A stretch of DNA of 64,000 nucleotides from Fidelibacterota bacterium (GCA_020354025.1 CP070638.1:186001-250000), one strand, 5' to 3'. Counted from the first letter of the stretch, positions 26,309 through 35,337 are shown. Numbers and translations: made by a program. Notes: generated by a model not told the origin, from the letters alone.

Positions 26309-26325
26309 TAAGTGTAGTGAAAACC

Positions 26326-26922
26326 ATGGACCAGCAAGTGATTTTCAAAGAGCACATCGAAGTGATTAAGGCCTTGATGGAGCAGCAGGCCGGGAATATC
26401 GAGCAGCTGGGCAAGAAGGCACTGGAAGTACTCCGGAACGGCGGCACAATATTCTTCTGCGGCAACGGAGGCAGCGCCGCCGACAGTCAGCATCTGGCTG
26501 CGGAACTGGTCGGCCGTTATGAGCGGGAGCGAGACGCCCTGCCCGCCGTAGCCTTGACGGTGGATACATCTGCTCTCACAGCCATCGGCAACGATTACGG
26601 CTTTGAGGATGTCTTCCATCGCCAACTGCTGGGCCTGGGCAAAGCCGGGGACCTGCTAGTGGCCATATCCACCTCCGGCAACAGTCCCAATGTCCTGAAA
26701 GCCGTGGAGACGGCTAGGCGGAAAGGCATTTTCACGGTCGCCCTGACTGGAAAGGGTGGCGGCAAGCTGGCAGCTGCCTGCGATCAGGCCATCCTCGTGC
26801 CTTCGAACCGGACCTCACGTATCCAGGAAGCTCATATAATCATCGGTCACATGATGTGCCAATTCGTCGAAGAGGGATTGTCGGACGGCTCGGCCGGCGG
26901 AACTTCGCAGGATCTACATTGA
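26326..26922 (+). CDS. gmhA: Phosphoheptose isomerase GmhA
   Basis: This 198-residue SIS-domain enzyme converts sedoheptulose 7-phosphate to D-glycero-D-manno-heptose 7-phosphate, the first step of LPS-core heptose synthesis. Diagnostic segments are [33 protein letters not shown] and a C-terminal [11 protein letters not shown]. The frame can also start at GTG 26317, which adds three residues. A good promoter lies immediately upstream. Its presence supports a Gram-negative envelope with heptose-containing LPS. No other heptose genes are nearby. Confidence 0.92.
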
Positions 26923-27019: not shown

Positions 27020-28369
27020 ATGCAGAACAGCGACAATAGCCCTAGGGATCGGAGCGTCACCCGGCGTGATTTTATCAGGACCTCAGCGGCGGTGACGCTG
27101 GCTGCGGCCGCAACGGGACCGGTGTCGATTTTTGCCGCCCGGGGAGATGAGCTGCGGGTTGGCCTGGTAGGTTGTGGTGGCCGGGGGACCGGCGCCGTCA
27201 CACAGGCACTTATGGCGACCAAAACACCGGTCAGGTTATGGGCCATGGGTGACCTGTTCCGCGATATGCTGGACAGCAGCTATAAGATGCTCAGCACCGG
27301 AGCCGAGGGCCGTTACGACCGCGTGGAATTCCCATCCCTCTCCAAGCAGATGGAGGTGCCCGAGAAGCGGAAGTTCGTTGGCTTTGACGCCTACAAAAAG
27401 GTTATCAACAGCGGTATCGATATCGTCATTCTCGCCACGACGCCCCATTACCGGCCGGAGCATTTCGAGTACGCCATAAGAAAGGGCAAGCACGTCTTTA
27501 TGGAAAAACCGGTAGCTGTCGACCCCGTCGGCATACGACGGATTATTGCCGCTGCCGAAGAGTCAAAGAAAAAGAAGTTGACGGTGATAGCCGGGACCCA
27601 GCGGCGGCACCAGAACCACTACCTGGAGATCATCCGGCGGGTCCATAAGGGCGACATAGGTGAGATCGTCGGCGGCCAGTGCTACTGGAACAGCGGCGCC
27701 ATGCTGGATTGGGGTCCCAGGAACAAGCCTGAATGGACCGAGATGGAGCGCCAGAACCGCCGCTGGTATTTCTACACCTGGCTCTGCGGGGACCATATCG
27801 CCGAGCAGCATGTCCACAATCTCGATGTCATGCTGTGGGCCATGGGTGAGCCTCCGGTCAAAGTAATGGGCATGGGCGGCCGTCAGTTCCGTACCGGCAA
27901 GGATTACGGCAATATCTGGGATCATTTCGCCGTGGAATACGAGTTCGCGAACGGTGCCCGGTTCTTGGGCATGTGCCGCCATAACGACGGCGCGAGCCAC
28001 CGCAACTCAGAGCGTCTGGTGGGCGTCAAGGGAACAACCTATACCGATGAGAGCAACGGCCTGATGCAGGGGGAAAATGCTTACAAATACGACGGACCCG
28101 CACTGAATCCCTATGTGCAGGAATGGGCCGATCTTATCAATAGCGTCCGCGACGGTAAGGGGCTGAACGAAGGGCGACAGGTGGCCGAGAGTACGCTAAC
28201 GGCCATTATGGGTCGCATGAGCGCCTATACCGGCCGTGAGCTCAGCTGGGACTGGGCCTTGAAAGCGTCCGAGCTGGACCTCTCCCCGCCCAAATACGAC
28301 CTGAGGTTGGATGCGGATAGCCTGCCGATGCGTCCGGTGGCAGTTCCCGGCAAGACGAAACTGATCTAG
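27020..28369 (+). CDS. Tat-exported Gfo/Idh/MocA-family oxidoreductase
   Basis: The 449-residue protein has a twin-arginine signal (SVTRRDFIRTSAAVTLAAAA). A Rossmann domain follows (LRVGLVGCGGRGTGAV), the catalytic-lysine motif EKPVAVDP and a C-terminal Gfo/Idh domain. Tat export suggests folding with the cofactor in the cytoplasm before reaching the periplasm. Exported members of this family act on sugars or glycosides. The two Na+/solute symporter genes follow in the same direction, so a role in preparing or sensing the transported substrate is plausible. The ATG is preceded by AAAGGAAAGAAAAGAG. Confidence 0.88.
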   Translation: MQNSDNSPRDRSVTRRDFIRTSAAVTLAAAATGPVSIFAARGDELRVGLVGCGGRGTGAVTQALMATKTPVRLWAMGDLFRDMLDSSYKMLSTGAEGRYDRVEFPSLSKQMEVPEKRKFVGFDAYKKVINSGIDIVILATTPHYRPEHFEYAIRKGKHVFMEKPVAVDPVGIRRIIAAAEESKKKKLTVIAGTQRRHQNHYLEIIRRVHKGDIGEIVGGQCYWNSGAMLDWGPRNKPEWTEMERQNRRWYFYTWLCGDHIAEQHVHNLDVMLWAMGEPPVKVMGMGGRQFRTGKDYGNIWDHFAVEYEFANGARFLGMCRHNDGASHRNSERLVGVKGTTYTDESNGLMQGENAYKYDGPALNPYVQEWADLINSVRDGKGLNEGRQVAESTLTAIMGRMSAYTGRELSWDWALKASELDLSPPKYDLRLDADSLPMRPVAVPGKTKLI

Positions 28370-28541: not shown

Positions 28542-30128
28542 ATGGTACAATTCGTTTTCCTTGACTGGCTATGGATCGTTTTCTTTTTGGCCCTTATGAT
28601 CGGGTGTGGTGTCCTTTTCTACCGGCTGGGCAAACGCTCCGAGTCGGATTTCTTCCTGGCTGGTAGGGGATTGCCCTGGTGGCTGCCGGCTTCTTCGGTG
28701 TACGCTACCCACACCGCTACCGATACGCCTATGTGGATAACTGGTGTTATCTATCAACACGGTCTTGCGGGGATCTGGTACACATTCTTCTCGGCCTGGT
28801 GTGCCATCAGTGCCTTCGTGTCCACCAGGATTTTCCGGCGGTCGCTGGCTTACACCCAGGCCGAATGGCAGAGCCTGCGTTTCGGCGGCCTGGGCAGCGA
28901 GCTGCTCAGGGGTTGGCTGGCCGGCTGGCAGGTTTTCATGAATATGTTCATCTTGGGCTGGGTGGGGATCGCCATGGGAAAGGTGTGTAACTACATGTTT
29001 GACTGGCCGGTGTGGGTAGGTCTGATATGTTTCTCGTCCATCTGCGCCATCTATGTACTCTCCGCTGGCTATTGGGGCGTGATCATGGCCGATTTCCAGC
29101 AGGGGATCATCGCCTTTGCCGCCATCATTATCGTATCGGTATGGGGTGTCATCGCCGCGGGCGGTCCCCAAGCCATCGTAACCGGGCTGGCTGATCTGGG
29201 GCAGTCCTGGCGGCTCAATCCGTTCCACTTCTCCGGCTGGTTATCCGGGGATTTCCCTGGAGCTTGGTTTATTACCATGCTGGTCATCGCCCTCATTGGC
29301 GGCTTTGGGATGGGTACGTCCATCGACTGGTACGCTGAGGCCCAGCGTATCCAATCAGCCCGAACTGTGCGGGATGCTTCCTACTCCATATGGTGGGGCA
29401 CGGCCCTGGTGGTCGTGCGTAATTCCATCTGGGCCGCGGCCATATTGGGATTCTTCGTCCTGTTCCCGAACATACAGGAAGCCAGCGAGTACGAACTGGG
29501 CTGGTTCCGATTGGGACTCGATTTCCTGCCTGCAGGCCTGTTGGGCTTCTTTTTTGCCGCCATCTTGGCAATTCACCTCTCAACAATTTCCACTCACCTC
29601 AACCTGGGCGGTATGTACGCCACCCGGGACATCTATCACCATTACATCAATCCCGAAGCACCGGAGAAGCGGCTTATCTGGGTGGGGCGCTTCACTACCC
29701 TGCTGCTCCTTCTGGGTTCGTTTGTCTTCGGCCTGATGATGGAAGAGATTACCAAGTGGCTTATCTTCGCCCTCTGGATCATGGCGGCGGGGGTGTGGCT
29801 CCCCAACATCCTGCAGGTGATCTGGTGGCGGTTTAATGCCTGGGGCTATCTATCCGCCTGGATTGCGAATCTGGGCCTCTCGTGGCTGGTAGTGTGGGTC
29901 CTGCCTGCCTTCAGAGTTATTCCCGAGATGCCTGACTACCTACAGTTCTGGGCGCTTATGGTCCTCACTGCCCTGATCTATCTTCCGGTGACTTTCCTTA
30001 CCAGAACCGAGGATATGGATCATTTGGTAAAATATTATGTCATGTCCCGGCCTATCGGATTCTGGGGCCCGGTGCGCCGCGAGGCCGAGCGGCGGGGCCT
30101 ACTGGAACAGGTAACGCATATTGAATGA
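28542..30128 (+). CDS. Sodium/solute symporter (SSS family), copy 1
   Basis: This 528-residue inner-membrane protein has about 13 hydrophobic segments. It shows SSS-family features: an N-terminal TM ending FYRLGKRSESDFFLAGRGLPWW, a helix with VYATHTATDTPMW, and a long series of glycine/tryptophan-rich helices. The substrate cannot be assigned. It is followed by a near-identical-length paralogue with no gaps in alignment by eye, so the pair is a tandem duplication. Position after a Gfo/Idh gene suggests a sugar or polyol. Confidence 0.9.
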   Translation: MVQFVFLDWLWIVFFLALMIGCGVLFYRLGKRSESDFFLAGRGLPWWLPASSVYATHTATDTPMWITGVIYQHGLAGIWYTFFSAWCAISAFVSTRIFRRSLAYTQAEWQSLRFGGLGSELLRGWLAGWQVFMNMFILGWVGIAMGKVCNYMFDWPVWVGLICFSSICAIYVLSAGYWGVIMADFQQGIIAFAAIIIVSVWGVIAAGGPQAIVTGLADLGQSWRLNPFHFSGWLSGDFPGAWFITMLVIALIGGFGMGTSIDWYAEAQRIQSARTVRDASYSIWWGTALVVVRNSIWAAAILGFFVLFPNIQEASEYELGWFRLGLDFLPAGLLGFFFAAILAIHLSTISTHLNLGGMYATRDIYHHYINPEAPEKRLIWVGRFTTLLLLLGSFVFGLMMEEITKWLIFALWIMAAGVWLPNILQVIWWRFNAWGYLSAWIANLGLSWLVVWVLPAFRVIPEMPDYLQFWALMVLTALIYLPVTFLTRTEDMDHLVKYYVMSRPIGFWGPVRREAERRGLLEQVTHIE

Positions 30129-30230
30129 GCGGAATCTAAGTGAATGTGAGACTATGACGGGAAAAAACATGAAGGGGCGAAGAGGCGACTAGATGGATCG
30201 TCCAGTGGGAATACCGGTGGAGACAGGTAC

Positions 30231-30245
30231 AAGGAGGTAGCCCTG
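30231..30245 (+). promoter_or_regulatory. Strong ribosome site in front of a CTG start
   Basis: AAGGAGG (30231-30237) stands five bases before CTG at 30243-30245. The codon occupies the exact place of the ATG in the upstream paralogue, where ATG-GTACAATTC corresponds to CTG-GTACAATTC. This decides the start of the second symporter. Confidence 0.75.
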
Positions 30246-31829
30246 GTACAATTCGTCTTCCTTGATTGGCTATGGATCGTCCTCTTCCTGGTCCTGATGA
30301 TCGGATGCGGTATCCTTTTCTACCGGCTGGGCAAACGCTCCGAGTCGGACTTCTTCCTGGCTGGCCGAGGGCTACCCTGGTGGCTGCCGGCTTCTTCGGT
30401 GTATGCCACCCACACCGCGGTGGATACACCCATGTGGGTGACCGGCGTCATCTACAAGCACGGCCTGACGGGAATCTGGTACACCTTTTTCTCGGCCTGG
30501 TGCGCCATCAGTGCCTTTGTCTCGACCAGGATTTTCCGCCGTTCGCTGGCGTATACCCAGGCGGAGTGGCAGAGCATCCGCTTCTCCGGACTGGGTAGCG
30601 AGCTGCTGCGTGGTTGGATGACCGGCTGGCAGCTGTTCATGACCATGTTCAACATGGGCTGGGTGGGGATCGCCATGGGTATGATCTGCAACTACCTCTT
30701 CGGTTGGCCCAACTGGATGGGACTGGTGATTTTCTCATCTGTCTGCGCGATATACGTACTGACGGCTGGCTACTGGGGAGTAGTCATGGCCGACTTCCAG
30801 CAGGGGATCGTTGCCTTCTCAGCGATATTGATCGTCTCGGTCTGGGGTGTGGTGGCCGCTGGTGGCCCCCATGAAATCGCCCTGAAGCTGGATGTCATGG
30901 GCCAGTCCTGGAGGCTGAATCCTTTCCATTTCAGCGGCTGGTTCTCCGGAGACTTCCCAGTCGCCTGGTTCCTGACGATGATGGTTATCGCCCTGGTGGG
31001 TGGATTCGGTATGGGTACCTCCATCGACTGGTACCTGGAAGCCCAGCGCATCCAGTCTGCCCGCTCGGTGCGGGATGCTTCGTATTCCATCTGGTGGGGA
31101 ACCGCCTTGGTGGTCATCCGCAATTCGATCTGGGCCGCCGCCGTGCTGGCGTTCTTCGTGATGTTCCCGAATATCAAGGAAACCAGCGAATACGAGCTGG
31201 GTTGGTTCCGGCTGGGATTTGACTATCTGCCGATCGGCATGTTGGGATTCTTCTTTGCGGCCATCCTGGCTATTCACTTGTCCACGGTATCCAGTGTGTT
31301 GAACCTGGGCTCAATGTACGCTACCCGGGATTTGTACCATCACTATATCAATCCCAATGCCTCTCAGAAAAAGCTGGTTGGGATCGGGCGTCTTTCGACT
31401 ATCCTGATTCTGTTGGGATCCTTCCTGCTAGGCCTGATGATGGAGGAGATCACCAAGTGGCTCATTTTCGCCCTCTGGATCATGGTAGCTGGAGTATGGC
31501 TGCCCAACATCCTGCAGGTGGTCTGGTGGCGGTTCAACGCCTGGGGCTATCTCTCTGCCTGGATCGCCAATCTGGGACTTTCTTGGCTGGTGGTCTGGAT
31601 ATTACCGGCATTCGGGGTCATCCCCGCATTACCCGATTACCTACAGTTCTGGGCGCTGATGGTCCTGACGGCGCTCATCTACATACCGGTAACTTTCATC
31701 ACCCGGCCGGAGAGTATGGATGATCTGGTGAAGTACTACGTCATGTCCCGTCCCCTAGGGGTATGGGGGCCGGTGCGCCGGGAGGCTGAGCGGCAAGGTC
31801 TACTGGAACAGGTGGTCGGAATCGAGTAG
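30243..31829 (+). CDS. Sodium/solute symporter (SSS family), copy 2, CTG start
   Basis: The 528-residue paralogue of the preceding symporter is the same length and very similar throughout. The first ATG (30297) would remove 18 residues, including half of the first membrane helix. From CTG 30243 the protein starts VQFVFLDWLWIV exactly as copy 1 does, and a perfect AAGGAGG precedes it. A CTG initiation codon is therefore inferred. Differences between copies cluster in helices and loops around residues 140-215, which may reflect different substrates or partner binding. Three small membrane-protein genes follow. Confidence 0.88.
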   Translation: MVQFVFLDWLWIVLFLVLMIGCGILFYRLGKRSESDFFLAGRGLPWWLPASSVYATHTAVDTPMWVTGVIYKHGLTGIWYTFFSAWCAISAFVSTRIFRRSLAYTQAEWQSIRFSGLGSELLRGWMTGWQLFMTMFNMGWVGIAMGMICNYLFGWPNWMGLVIFSSVCAIYVLTAGYWGVVMADFQQGIVAFSAILIVSVWGVVAAGGPHEIALKLDVMGQSWRLNPFHFSGWFSGDFPVAWFLTMMVIALVGGFGMGTSIDWYLEAQRIQSARSVRDASYSIWWGTALVVIRNSIWAAAVLAFFVMFPNIKETSEYELGWFRLGFDYLPIGMLGFFFAAILAIHLSTVSSVLNLGSMYATRDLYHHYINPNASQKKLVGIGRLSTILILLGSFLLGLMMEEITKWLIFALWIMVAGVWLPNILQVVWWRFNAWGYLSAWIANLGLSWLVVWILPAFGVIPALPDYLQFWALMVLTALIYIPVTFITRPESMDDLVKYYVMSRPLGVWGPVRREAERQGLLEQVVGIE

Positions 31830-31883
31830 ACGATGCTGCATTGAGGAATAATAATTGAAAAGTAAGAATCGAGGAGGCGTAAA

Positions 31884-32180
31884 ATGGCTTTGATCCGTAG
31901 GAAATGGACCCCCGCCGCCGCGGATGAGTGGACTAGGGAGGATTGGATCACGATTGTGCTTTCCCCTCTGGCTTACATCACGTTGGCTATCGGGGTAGCT
32001 CTTAGCATATTTCTGCTTAAAATAGGATTCATCGTCCTTGGGGCGGGGGTGGTGCTGACGGCCTTGATGCACTGGGTCATCGATCCCAAATTGAAGACCA
32101 TTTCTGAAGACTACGAGAAGAAACAGAAGGATTATCTGGAAGAACTGGAAAAGATTATCCGCTGGGAGGAGATAAAATGA
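31884..32180 (+). CDS. Small two-helix membrane protein of the symporter module
   Basis: The 98-residue protein begins with a soluble segment rich in Trp and charge (RRKWTPAAADEWTREDW), then two closely spaced membrane helices (about residues 22-45 and 47-65). A charged helical tail (SEDYEKKQKDYLEELEKII) follows. An excellent GAGGAGG precedes the ATG by six bases. It follows symporter copy 2 after 54 bases and its stop overlaps the next start (ATGA). I do not recognise the family. By position it resembles small accessory subunits of other SSS transporters (DUF485- or DUF4212-type), but the sequence shows no clear match. Confidence 0.75.
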   Translation: MALIRRKWTPAAADEWTREDWITIVLSPLAYITLAIGVALSIFLLKIGFIVLGAGVVLTALMHWVIDPKLKTISEDYEKKQKDYLEELEKIIRWEEIK

Positions 32181-32311
32181 ACGAAGGATTTGGTGTTGTT
32201 ATTGGGATGACTATTGCCTATGTGGCGTCCTTCACGGGGCTGATTTTCGCATGGATCCACTACCGGAAGCGCAAGGCGGGGGACGCGCCGACATCTGAGC
32301 AGAGGAGGTGA
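32177..32311 (+). CDS. 44-residue single-helix membrane protein
   Basis: This small gene begins with an ATGA overlap on the previous gene and is preceded by GGAGGAG at five bases. The product has one membrane helix (about residues 6-27, VVIGMTIAYVASFTGLIFAW) followed by a basic cytoplasmic tail (HYRKRKAG). Coupled translation and a strong ribosome site argue that it is real despite its size. Family unknown; probably a subunit or regulator of the adjacent symporters. Confidence 0.7.
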   Translation: MNEGFGVVIGMTIAYVASFTGLIFAWIHYRKRKAGDAPTSEQRR

Positions 32312-32313
32312 TC

Positions 32314-32445
32314 ATGACCGTTCTGCTCGCTCAGTCCACACGCATCGGTGCGCCCTTTCTGGGAGTGATCATTCCCCTCCTGGTCCTAGCCGTTTCATTT
32401 ACAGTGACTTGGCTTCTCTACCGGCATTTTTCAAAACGGCTGTAA
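32314..32445 (+). CDS. 43-residue single-helix membrane protein
   Basis: The ATG at 32314 is two bases after the previous stop codon and follows AGGAGG. The product has a short polar start (AQSTRIGAP), one long hydrophobic helix (about residues 15-37) and a basic end (YRHFSKRL), giving an outside-N, inside-C prediction. Together with the two preceding genes it forms a compact three-gene set of small membrane proteins behind the symporter pair. Family unknown. Confidence 0.7.
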   Translation: MTVLLAQSTRIGAPFLGVIIPLLVLAVSFTVTWLLYRHFSKRL

Positions 32446-32736: not shown

Positions 32737-35337
32737 ATGCTTCGTCATAGTTCAGTAATTAGGTTGTTTAGAGTTAGCATGTTCCTGCGGCTGTTATGCT
32801 CATCGGCTGTAATGGGCCAGGCTTTCCAGAGTGCCTGGCCGGAGGATGCTGGGCGGGTGTGGGTTGGGCCGGAGTACTGGGCCAATCGGCTGCAGGACTG
32901 GCGCATCGCGGCAGGCCGGCTGGAGTGCGTAACCGGAGAGGAAAATCTCCCCATGCGGACGGTGCACCTGCTCACCAGGCAGCTGGCACCAGGAGAAGGT
33001 GACCTGGTGATGAGCGTACGCATCGGCCTGATAGAGAGAAGCGGAAAGGTCTCGTCTCAGAGCGCTGCTGGCTTTCTCATCGGCGTCGGTGGCGAGCTGG
33101 ACTATCGCGCCGCCGCACTGGCGCATCATAGCCCCGGGCCGGACGGCGGACTGTTTACCGCCGTTGACGGTAGCGGAGCGGTGTTTATTCGCGACTTCAG
33201 CCAGGTACCCACCGACGATCAGGTACCCAGGGACCTGGCTCGCCAATCTAAGGGAGTCGGTTTACCCAAGGAAATAGAGCTGCGGCTTGCAGTGAAGCCA
33301 ACCGGTGGGACGCACACTCTGACTCTCTCTAGCCACAATCCAAAGAGCGGGAAGCGGCTCGGTGAGGTTACCCTCAAAAATATTAAACCGGGGCGGTTGG
33401 TCGGCAATCTGGCGCTGGTGTCGCATCCGGGTACGGGTGACCATCTCGGGCGGTTCTGGTTCCGCGAATGGCAGGTCTCCGGCACCAAAGTTGCCGCGAA
33501 TGATGACCGCCTGTGCGGTCCGATCCTTTGTACACAATATACTGTGCAGGAGAATAACCTCAAGCTGACCGCCCAGCTGATGCCCCTCGGTGACAGCGAT
33601 AACTCCACCGTGTCACTGCAGGTCATGAAGGACGGGGAGTGGCAAACGGTGGCTGTGACCAAGATCGTCGTACCGGGCTATACCGCGCCCTTCCGCGTGG
33701 ACCGCTGGGACAGCACCAGGGATATCCCCTACCTTGTGGTATATGATCTGCGGCTGGGGGACAACCAGTACCGGCGGTACACCTGGCCCGGGACGGTGCA
33801 GCATGATCCGGTAGAGAAGGCAGAGATCGTCGTAGCGGCCTTTACTGGCAACCACAACTTGAAGAGGGGGGTTGAATCGGGTAGTTTTTCATGGACGCCG
33901 GGGAGTGTCTGGTTTCCCCACAACGACATCGTCAGGTACGTGTCCTTGCACCAGCCGGACCTGCTGTTTTTCAGCGGTGACCAGGTCTACGAGAGTTCTA
34001 GCCCGACCCGGCCTGACCGCGCCAACATTAAGCTGGATTACCTCTACAAGTGGTACTTGTGGTGCTGGGCGTTCCGTGACATAGCCCGGGACATACCGTG
34101 CGTCTCTATTCCCGATGACCATGACGTCTACCAGGGTAATCTATGGGGTGCCGGGGGCCGAAAGATCGATCAGGATAACCGCGGCGGCTACGTCTATTCC
34201 GCCGAATTCGTCAAGATGGTGGAACGGACCCAGACCAGCCACCTGCCCGACCCTTACGACCCGACGCCGATAGACCAGGGCATCGGGGTGTATTATACCG
34301 ACCTCAACGTGGGCCGGGTTAGCTTCGCCGTCCTTGAGGACCGTAAGTTCAAGTCGGGGTGTAACGGGCTGGTTCCACCGACCAAATCGGGGCGGCCCGA
34401 CCATGTGATCGACCCGGACTTCGATCCGAAGACCGCTGATGTGCCGGGGGCCAGGCTGCTGGGTGACCGCCAGCTGGCATTCCTGACAAACTGGGCCGCC
34501 GACTGGCGTAATACCGACATGAAGGCAGCGCTGTCCCAGACTGTCTTTGCTGGCGTTGCGTCCCTCCATGGTGCCGAACTGTTCCGTCTGGTAGCTGACT
34601 TGGATTGCAATGGTTGGCCTCAGACCGGACGCAACCGGGCACTGCATGAACTGCGCCGGGGATTTGCGTTCATGATCGGCGGCGACCAGCACCTCGCCAC
34701 CATCGTTCATCACGGTATTGATGACTGGAACGATGCCGGCTGGTCCTTTGCCGTCCCGTCCATCGCCAACTTTTATCCCCGGGCTTGGGTGCCGCTGGAG
34801 TCTGGCGGGAATCACCAGCCGGGTATGCCCAACTATACCGGCGAATTCTTGGACGGGCTTGGGAACCACGTCACCGTATGGGCGGCCACCAATCCGGGAG
34901 AATCGACGGGCAGGAAACCAGCCGCTCTGCATGATAAAATGCCCGGCTATGGCATTGTCAGGTTCAACAAGACCGAACGCACGATAACCATTGAATGCTG
35001 GCCACGCTATGCCGATCCGTCAAGTCCTAGTGAGCAGTACCTGGGCTGGCCGAAGATGATCAGCCAGTTGGACAACTACGGCCGCCGGGCGGTGGCATAT
35101 CTACCAACTGTCAAGGCCAGCGGCATGGCTGATCCGGTGCTCCAGGTAATTGATGAAGCCGATGGTGAGATCGTTTACACCCTGCGCATTAAGGGCTCAT
35201 CTTTCCGACCCAAGGTGTTCAGGGAAGGTCTCTACACACTAAGGATCGGTGAGCCGGGCACTGAGAAAATGAAGACCTTGACAGGTATACAATCCCTGGC
35301 ACCGGAGAAAAGCCGGACGATTAGGGTGAGGTTCTGA
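32737..35337 (+). CDS. PhoD-like metallophosphatase, exported
   Basis: The 866-residue protein has an N-terminal hydrophobic signal (about residues 9-29), then an unassigned beta-rich region to about residue 340. The PhoD/metallophosphatase domain follows with FFSGDQVYES (about residue 412), IPDDHDVYQGN (about 458) and GGDQHLATIVHHG (about 646). PhoD-type enzymes hydrolyse phosphodiesters such as teichoic or nucleic acids and phosphate esters outside the cell. The protein is much longer than Bacillus PhoD because of the N-terminal extension and a C-terminal beta domain. The next gene starts within about 90 bases. Confidence 0.85.
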   Translation: MLRHSSVIRLFRVSMFLRLLCSSAVMGQAFQSAWPEDAGRVWVGPEYWANRLQDWRIAAGRLECVTGEENLPMRTVHLLTRQLAPGEGDLVMSVRIGLIERSGKVSSQSAAGFLIGVGGELDYRAAALAHHSPGPDGGLFTAVDGSGAVFIRDFSQVPTDDQVPRDLARQSKGVGLPKEIELRLAVKPTGGTHTLTLSSHNPKSGKRLGEVTLKNIKPGRLVGNLALVSHPGTGDHLGRFWFREWQVSGTKVAANDDRLCGPILCTQYTVQENNLKLTAQLMPLGDSDNSTVSLQVMKDGEWQTVAVTKIVVPGYTAPFRVDRWDSTRDIPYLVVYDLRLGDNQYRRYTWPGTVQHDPVEKAEIVVAAFTGNHNLKRGVESGSFSWTPGSVWFPHNDIVRYVSLHQPDLLFFSGDQVYESSSPTRPDRANIKLDYLYKWYLWCWAFRDIARDIPCVSIPDDHDVYQGNLWGAGGRKIDQDNRGGYVYSAEFVKMVERTQTSHLPDPYDPTPIDQGIGVYYTDLNVGRVSFAVLEDRKFKSGCNGLVPPTKSGRPDHVIDPDFDPKTADVPGARLLGDRQLAFLTNWAADWRNTDMKAALSQTVFAGVASLHGAELFRLVADLDCNGWPQTGRNRALHELRRGFAFMIGGDQHLATIVHHGIDDWNDAGWSFAVPSIANFYPRAWVPLESGGNHQPGMPNYTGEFLDGLGNHVTVWAATNPGESTGRKPAALHDKMPGYGIVRFNKTERTITIECWPRYADPSSPSEQYLGWPKMISQLDNYGRRAVAYLPTVKASGMADPVLQVIDEADGEIVYTLRIKGSSFRPKVFREGLYTLRIGEPGTEKMKTLTGIQSLAPEKSRTIRVRF

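Follow-up and report, generated by a model that had tools for sequence, protein, structure and literature searches.

In a 64,000-nucleotide (nt) stretch of the genome of a Fidelibacterota bacterium (GCA_020354025.1, CP070638.1:186001-250000), referred to below as the window, two tandem genes for carriers of the sodium:solute symporter (SSS) family, SSS1 (28542-30128, + strand) and SSS2 (30243-31829, + strand), are followed on the same strand by three very short genes, here called A (31884-32180), B (32177-32311), and C (32314-32445). We consider it likely that genes of this kind encode a four-component Na+-coupled symporter, in which an SSS carrier would be accompanied by A, B, and C as dedicated small membrane subunits. 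An earlier reading of the window (the original prediction) had proposed a multi-subunit transporter at this locus, and the idea is now supported by the linkage of the four genes across genomes, by natural fusions of the carrier with A, and by selection on the small genes; we infer that B and C physically bind the carrier, and likewise the role of each subunit.

Linkage of the carrier and the small genes across genomes

An alignment of ten A proteins served as the query against GTDB, with each of 84,980 species represented by a single genome, and 80 loci out of 98 confirmed A matches make up the locus set. In the class-level comparison, two matches to A (G157 and G159, E ~6e-4), which involved residues 13-76 in a 420-residue frame with a stop, were discarded as chance. 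The 80 loci fall into about ten phylum-level groups (Neomarinimicrobiota, Ignavibacteria and Melioribacter, Calditrichota, KSB1, Acidobacteria, Aminicenantes, Krumholzibacteriota, Gemmatimonadota, Rhodothermales, and Kryptonia), together with singletons of others; taxon labels are taken mostly from the records of metagenome-assembled genomes, and single labels may be wrong. Because the loci were found with A only, the search itself does not influence the counts for the other three genes. In 78 of 80 loci, A has beside it an SSS gene 65-86% identical to the window's, B is present in 79 of 80 and C in 79 of 80, and the exceptions start or stop at A on their contig (L073 and L093, which lack SSS, and L080, which lacks B and C).

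Among 77 complete loci, the order is S-A-B-C (S being the SSS gene) in 47, a fused S and A followed by B-C in 13, and A-B-C-S in 12; three more have S-A with B and C reversed, two show other arrangements, and the set is still together in all five. Linkage that outlasts reordering and inversion points to function rather than to shared descent of the neighborhood. In three Aminicenantes loci (L065, L072, and L086), B and C lie downstream of SSS-A on the opposite strand, and must thus be transcribed separately from it there, yet they are kept.

The window's own genus has another five A genes; all of them are followed by B and C and adjoin an SSS gene ~78-90% identical to the window's. Between same-genus copies of the small genes, the rate of nonsynonymous change (dN) is 0.07-0.35 and that of synonymous change (dS) is at least 1.28 or saturated, and A, B, and C are under purifying selection. 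The original prediction had proposed a profile search for conserved gene order near SSS genes, and had named absence of the small genes beside symporters in related genomes, or change in them at the neutral rate, as observations that would speak against it; the linkage is kept in ~80 loci, the two loci without an adjoining SSS gene being contig ends, and dN is far below dS. The view of A, B, and C as spurious or unrelated short open reading frames lying by chance behind symporters, for which their shortness alone could be cited, is refuted by this recurrence and these rates, together with the conserved order and the fusion.

The A-B-C set is also specific to one SSS clade. In 245 genomes of the phylum, SSS matches split into a clade at 65% identity or above and a separate mass at 30-36%; every clade locus with enough flank (12 in this set) has A, B, and C, and all three are absent from 16 of 16 checked loci whose SSS is 30-36% identical. 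Two decayed orphan copies of the clade SSS occur in the genus, both without A-B-C: one in G001 (L138:7054-8322), 95% identical to SSS1, cut at residue 423 and directly behind a GmhA-like gene (L138:6364-7029), and the other in G002 (L139:7192-7464), a fragment of 91 residues.

One element of the original prediction, the tandem arrangement of the carriers, proved incidental in this comparison. The tandem pair is specific to the window locus, every other locus having a single SSS of the clade, and in the same-genus genome G003 relatives of SSS1 and of SSS2 each have their own A-B-C; the pair is therefore a local duplication. SSS1 and SSS2 would probably share the single A-B-C set of the window.

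Fusion of the carrier with A, and structure models

In 13 loci, including some from Acidobacteria, Gemmatimonadetes, and Krumholzibacteriota, SSS and A form a single reading frame, with a short linker and with A beginning shortly past the conserved C-terminal end of the carrier. Long open-frame matches to B or A in the high-GC loci L036, L069, and L096 are in a frame different from that of SSS and were not counted as fusions. The natural fusions are strong evidence that A acts in contact with the carrier, and they imply that the A N-terminus and the SSS C-terminus face the same side of the membrane.

An AlphaFold2 (AF2) model of one natural fusion (L058, 69-row alignment) has a mean predicted local distance difference test score (pLDDT) of 84.9 and a predicted template modeling score (pTM) of 0.85, and in it A appears as two helices, 546-570 and 574-625, mostly with a pLDDT of 83-97. 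The solved folds closest to this model are human SGLT2-MAP17 complexes, SGLT1, vSGLT, SiaT, and NIS. Segments 81-100 and 231-290 are less confident in a model of SSS1 alone, a comparison in which both the sequences and the alignments differ between models, and this hints at where A may rest. With the idea in mind that A might supply the missing 14th helix of SGLT-type carriers, we compared the TMt score between the SSS-only and fused models; the gain is similar for both types of target, ~+0.07 for the 14-helix SGLTs and +0.04-0.10 for the 13-helix SiaT and NIS.

The same fusions bear on whether A, B, and C are subunits at all. They could be dedicated assembly or stability factors, aiding insertion or countering proteolysis, that leave the mature SSS protein; membrane proteins of similar size do act in this way, MgtU and MgtS shielding transporters from FtsH (PMC10710835), and for B and C the linkage data are equally compatible with such a role. 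However, in 13 loci A is joined covalently to the mature carrier, so that A, at least, does not leave it there, and it would be uncommon for one carrier to have three separate chaperones; we regard this alternative as unlikely.

The four-component reading is further supported by sequence distances: those of S track the distances of A (correlation 0.68), B (0.47), and C (0.50), with 0 of 2000 permutations reaching these values in each case. On the other side, these correlations reflect in part shared species history, and fusion was seen for A only, and for neither B nor C.

In the four-component arrangement that we prefer, the SSS protein would be a LeuT-fold carrier, and A would form a hairpin of two helices whose end is a charged helix in the cytoplasm; within the membrane, A, B, and C would rest against the carrier and be needed for its assembly, stability, or gating, in the manner of MAP17 and SGLT2. 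A bolder version, which we offer tentatively and by analogy with MAP17 on SGLT2, is that A-B-C forms an obligate membrane collar that sets coupling or gating, and that the whole might represent an undescribed four-subunit class of secondary transporter present in about ten phyla.

Gene spacing and features of the small proteins

The original prediction described the three small genes accurately, with respect to their lengths (98, 44, and 43 residues), their strong ribosome sites, their spacing, and their one or two membrane helices each. Read from the sequence, the ribosome sites are GAGGAGG at 31871-31877 for A, GGAGGAG at 32165-32171 for B, and AGGAGG at 32303-32308 for C, all on the + strand; A and B overlap by 4 nt, and the gap between B and C is 2 nt. 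A has two hydrophobic helices followed by a charged helix. B is a single helix with a basic tail and a face of small residues (G10, S18, G21, and A25), and C a single helix with an invariant proline and a basic tail.

This tight spacing, the encoding with the carrier, the constant presence of all three genes, and the capacity of A for fusion argue against a reading of A, B, and C as regulators, by which the carrier would be switched or inhibited as PtsG is by SgrT or PitA by MgtS. Regulators of that type are usually expressed apart from their target, under another signal, which also weighs against it. Regulatory small proteins are known on other bacterial transporters (PMC10710835), and we nevertheless find the regulator reading highly improbable here.

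By profile comparison, A, B, and C are three new small-protein families. None had a Pfam or NCBIfam family above cut-off, with scattered weak matches only, in tests of eight members of A against Pfam, 38 of B (8 + 30) against NCBIfam and 30 also against Pfam, and, for C, eight against NCBIfam and 29 against Pfam. Among the matches listed at E<=1, neither eight members of A nor 30 of B have DUF485, DUF4212, or DUF997; of 29 C members, a single one matched DUF485, at E=0.047, which is not a family match, and DUF485 was not found in the window's genome. Of eight B members, one reached the profile NF045580 ("symporter small accessory protein") at E=0.41; none of 30 did so at E<=1, nor did any of eight C members. 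No solved structure is similar to A by sequence. Assignment of A to cytochrome oxidase subunit IV (COX4) was rejected: the match, over residues 45-87, scored 18.8 bits against a cut-off of 26, and the neighbors are symporters, not oxidases.

Invariant residues of B are G10, Y15, S18, G21, and A25. Conserved positions cluster on one helix face in both B (p=0.02) and C (p<0.001, permutation), as expected for packing surfaces. Judging from the basic tails, both proteins probably have their N-termini outside and their C-termini inside.

The SSS carriers

Both carriers match PF00474 (SSS1, E=4.6e-23, 82.2 bits; SSS2, E=1.7e-22, 80.3 bits; cut-off 22.8) and are 83% identical to each other. The original prediction called them two SSS paralogues of 528 residues, and both are indeed SSS proteins; what it missed is that the length given for SSS2 needs a CTG start. 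SSS1 (P0005) has 528 residues from an ATG, with no ATG, GTG, or TTG at the matching position of SSS2, in which the first such codon is ATG 30297, giving 510 residues. CTG 30243 aligns with the SSS1 ATG, most relatives have an ATG at the same place, and the ribosome site AAGGAGG (30231-30237, + strand) lies 5 nt upstream of it; a length of 528 residues implies this start, and CTG 30243 is probably the start codon of SSS2.

SSS1 and SSS2 belong to the SSS/SLC5 family, and Na+ coupling we infer. The closest solved relatives of SSS1 are vSGLT and SGLT1. An AF2 model of SSS1 alone (pLDDT 81.5) has the SGLT/SiaT/NIS fold, and the AF2 models match SGLT2, SGLT1, SiaT, and NIS with a probability of 1.00 (LeuT-type SGLT fold). 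In an alignment read by eye, Ser347-Thr348 (P0005 numbering) align with S364/S365 of vSGLT, at the Na2 site; among 42 sequences, Ser is invariant at 347 and Thr at least 90% conserved at 348. Both carriers score ~22-24 bits against TIGR03648, the profile for the large subunit of two-subunit SSS systems, for which the cut-off is 320.75.

Several module SSS proteins are longer, ~640-650 residues (L045, L092, L089, L085, L040, L063, and L060), and carry a 120-residue insert after residue 219 with the motif NSTCEWxVP ... LFP ... YSxDxGxTW; it resembles, by eye, an Ig-like beta-sandwich of secreted proteins and has no Pfam match. The insert-bearing carriers are mostly in loci with the order A-B-C-SSS.

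Neighboring genes and substrate

As substrate, we consider mannose or a hexose related to it probable, most likely freed from glycans, and mannose itself is a reasoned guess that we put at about even odds. The evidence is in the neighborhood of the module: the commonest nearest same-strand neighbor is a glycoside hydrolase (GH) of the alpha-mannosidase family GH38 (9/97), and the next is GH92 (6/97), which lies within 6 kb in 12 loci. GH92, too, is an alpha-mannosidase family, and among glycoside hydrolases these two families rank first as neighbors, in several phyla. GH38 loci are from Ignavibacteria/Melioribacter and Aminicenantes and GH92 loci from Marinimicrobia, Krumholzibacteriota, Gemmatimonadetes, and Acidobacteria; with different taxa for the two, the mannosidase association arose more than once. 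Next in frequency as neighbors come AGE-family 2-epimerases and TonB receptors, and ROK sugar kinases also recur. In the same genus, an SSS1-like module shares a 5.3-kb contig with a GH38 gene. Further, in three of four genomes of the class that have both GH92 and the module, the two lie within ~1 kb. GH92 occurs in nine of 171 genomes of the class, and genome-level co-occurrence was dropped as support, since GH92 is found in only four of 12 module genomes and also in five genomes that lack the module; the argument used is adjacency alone.

That the module is real and the substrate something else, such as another hexose, an N-acetylhexosamine, or another glycan product, is only a little less probable than an even chance; this alternative concerns the substrate and is compatible with the four-component reading. 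Among the neighbors are SGSH-type sulfatases and, in L009, a gene resembling those for GH3 beta-N-acetylhexosaminidases. In the same genus, three modules lie behind a ROK-family gene, and for the two such genes tested the best match is to the glucokinase subfamily. By our own reading of the SSS alignment, the residues E88 and Q69 of the vSGLT galactose site are not conserved. GH92 was not found in the window's own genus and the window's genome has only a weak GH38 match, so the mannose link comes from relatives. Set against this alternative is the rank of GH38 and GH92 among glycoside hydrolase neighbors in several phyla. For Shewanella, an SSS carrier of sodium and mannose has been put forward as a proposal, untested there (PMC7918813).

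Upstream of the module, the window has a gene for a Gfo/Idh/MocA oxidoreductase (27020-28369, + strand), recognized by its Gfo/Idh domains and, for its twin-arginine translocation (Tat) signal, by TIGR01409 (19.0 bits, cut-off 16.7). The original prediction had pointed to this Tat-exported oxidoreductase, and it is indeed present; it is not among the recurrent neighbors and is probably an incidental companion rather than part of the module. A GmhA-like SIS sugar-phosphate isomerase gene (26317-26922, + strand) is a further upstream neighbor, and elsewhere in the genus a GmhA-like gene immediately precedes the SSS1-like orphan of G001. Behind the module, 32737-35337 encodes a large protein without an NCBIfam match that looks, by eye, like a PhoD-type phosphodiesterase or alkaline phosphatase.

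Comparison with known systems

Several SSS systems consist of two genes: TIGR03648 (Na_symport_lg, VC_2705) with DUF4212/TIGR03647, ActP with YjcH (DUF485), and PanF with YhdT (DUF997). As in these, an SSS carrier here stands beside a small membrane protein; unlike them, it has three small partners rather than one, and neither TIGR03648 nor the small-partner profiles are matched. NF045580 likewise describes a very short single-helix protein annotated as a symporter accessory, with a profile that is not matched. Tiny single-helix proteins also bind transporters of other families, as AcrZ does AcrB, KdpF the KdpFABC complex, and MetS the NSS transporter MetP; we found no sequence relation to them. 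The original prediction did not recognize three such genes in a row as a known set, and our literature searches likewise gave no description of an SSS module with three small partners.

Relatives with solved structures, namely vSGLT (the Vibrio Na+/galactose symporter), SiaT, and NIS, share the family and the fold and are ~15-20% identical in structural alignments; they are not known to need dedicated small subunits. SSS/SLC5 carriers are usually treated as single polypeptides. In a 2021 review of prokaryotic SSS transporters, the words "subunit" and "accessory" are absent (PMC7918813). With the module come three new families of small proteins, and likely transporters can be named in phyla that degrade glycans and are mostly uncultured.

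A parallel exists in humans: SGLT2 needs a small membrane partner, MAP17 (PMC12605011). SGLT2-MAP17 (SLC5A2 with PDZK1IP1) shares with the module an SSS/SLC5 carrier, and its complexes are among the solved folds nearest to the fused model. The module differs in being bacterial and in having three partners, and MAP17 is not operon-linked to its carrier; the widely conserved four-gene form, with its natural fusion, offers a bacterial system in which to ask why human SGLT2 needs a small partner.

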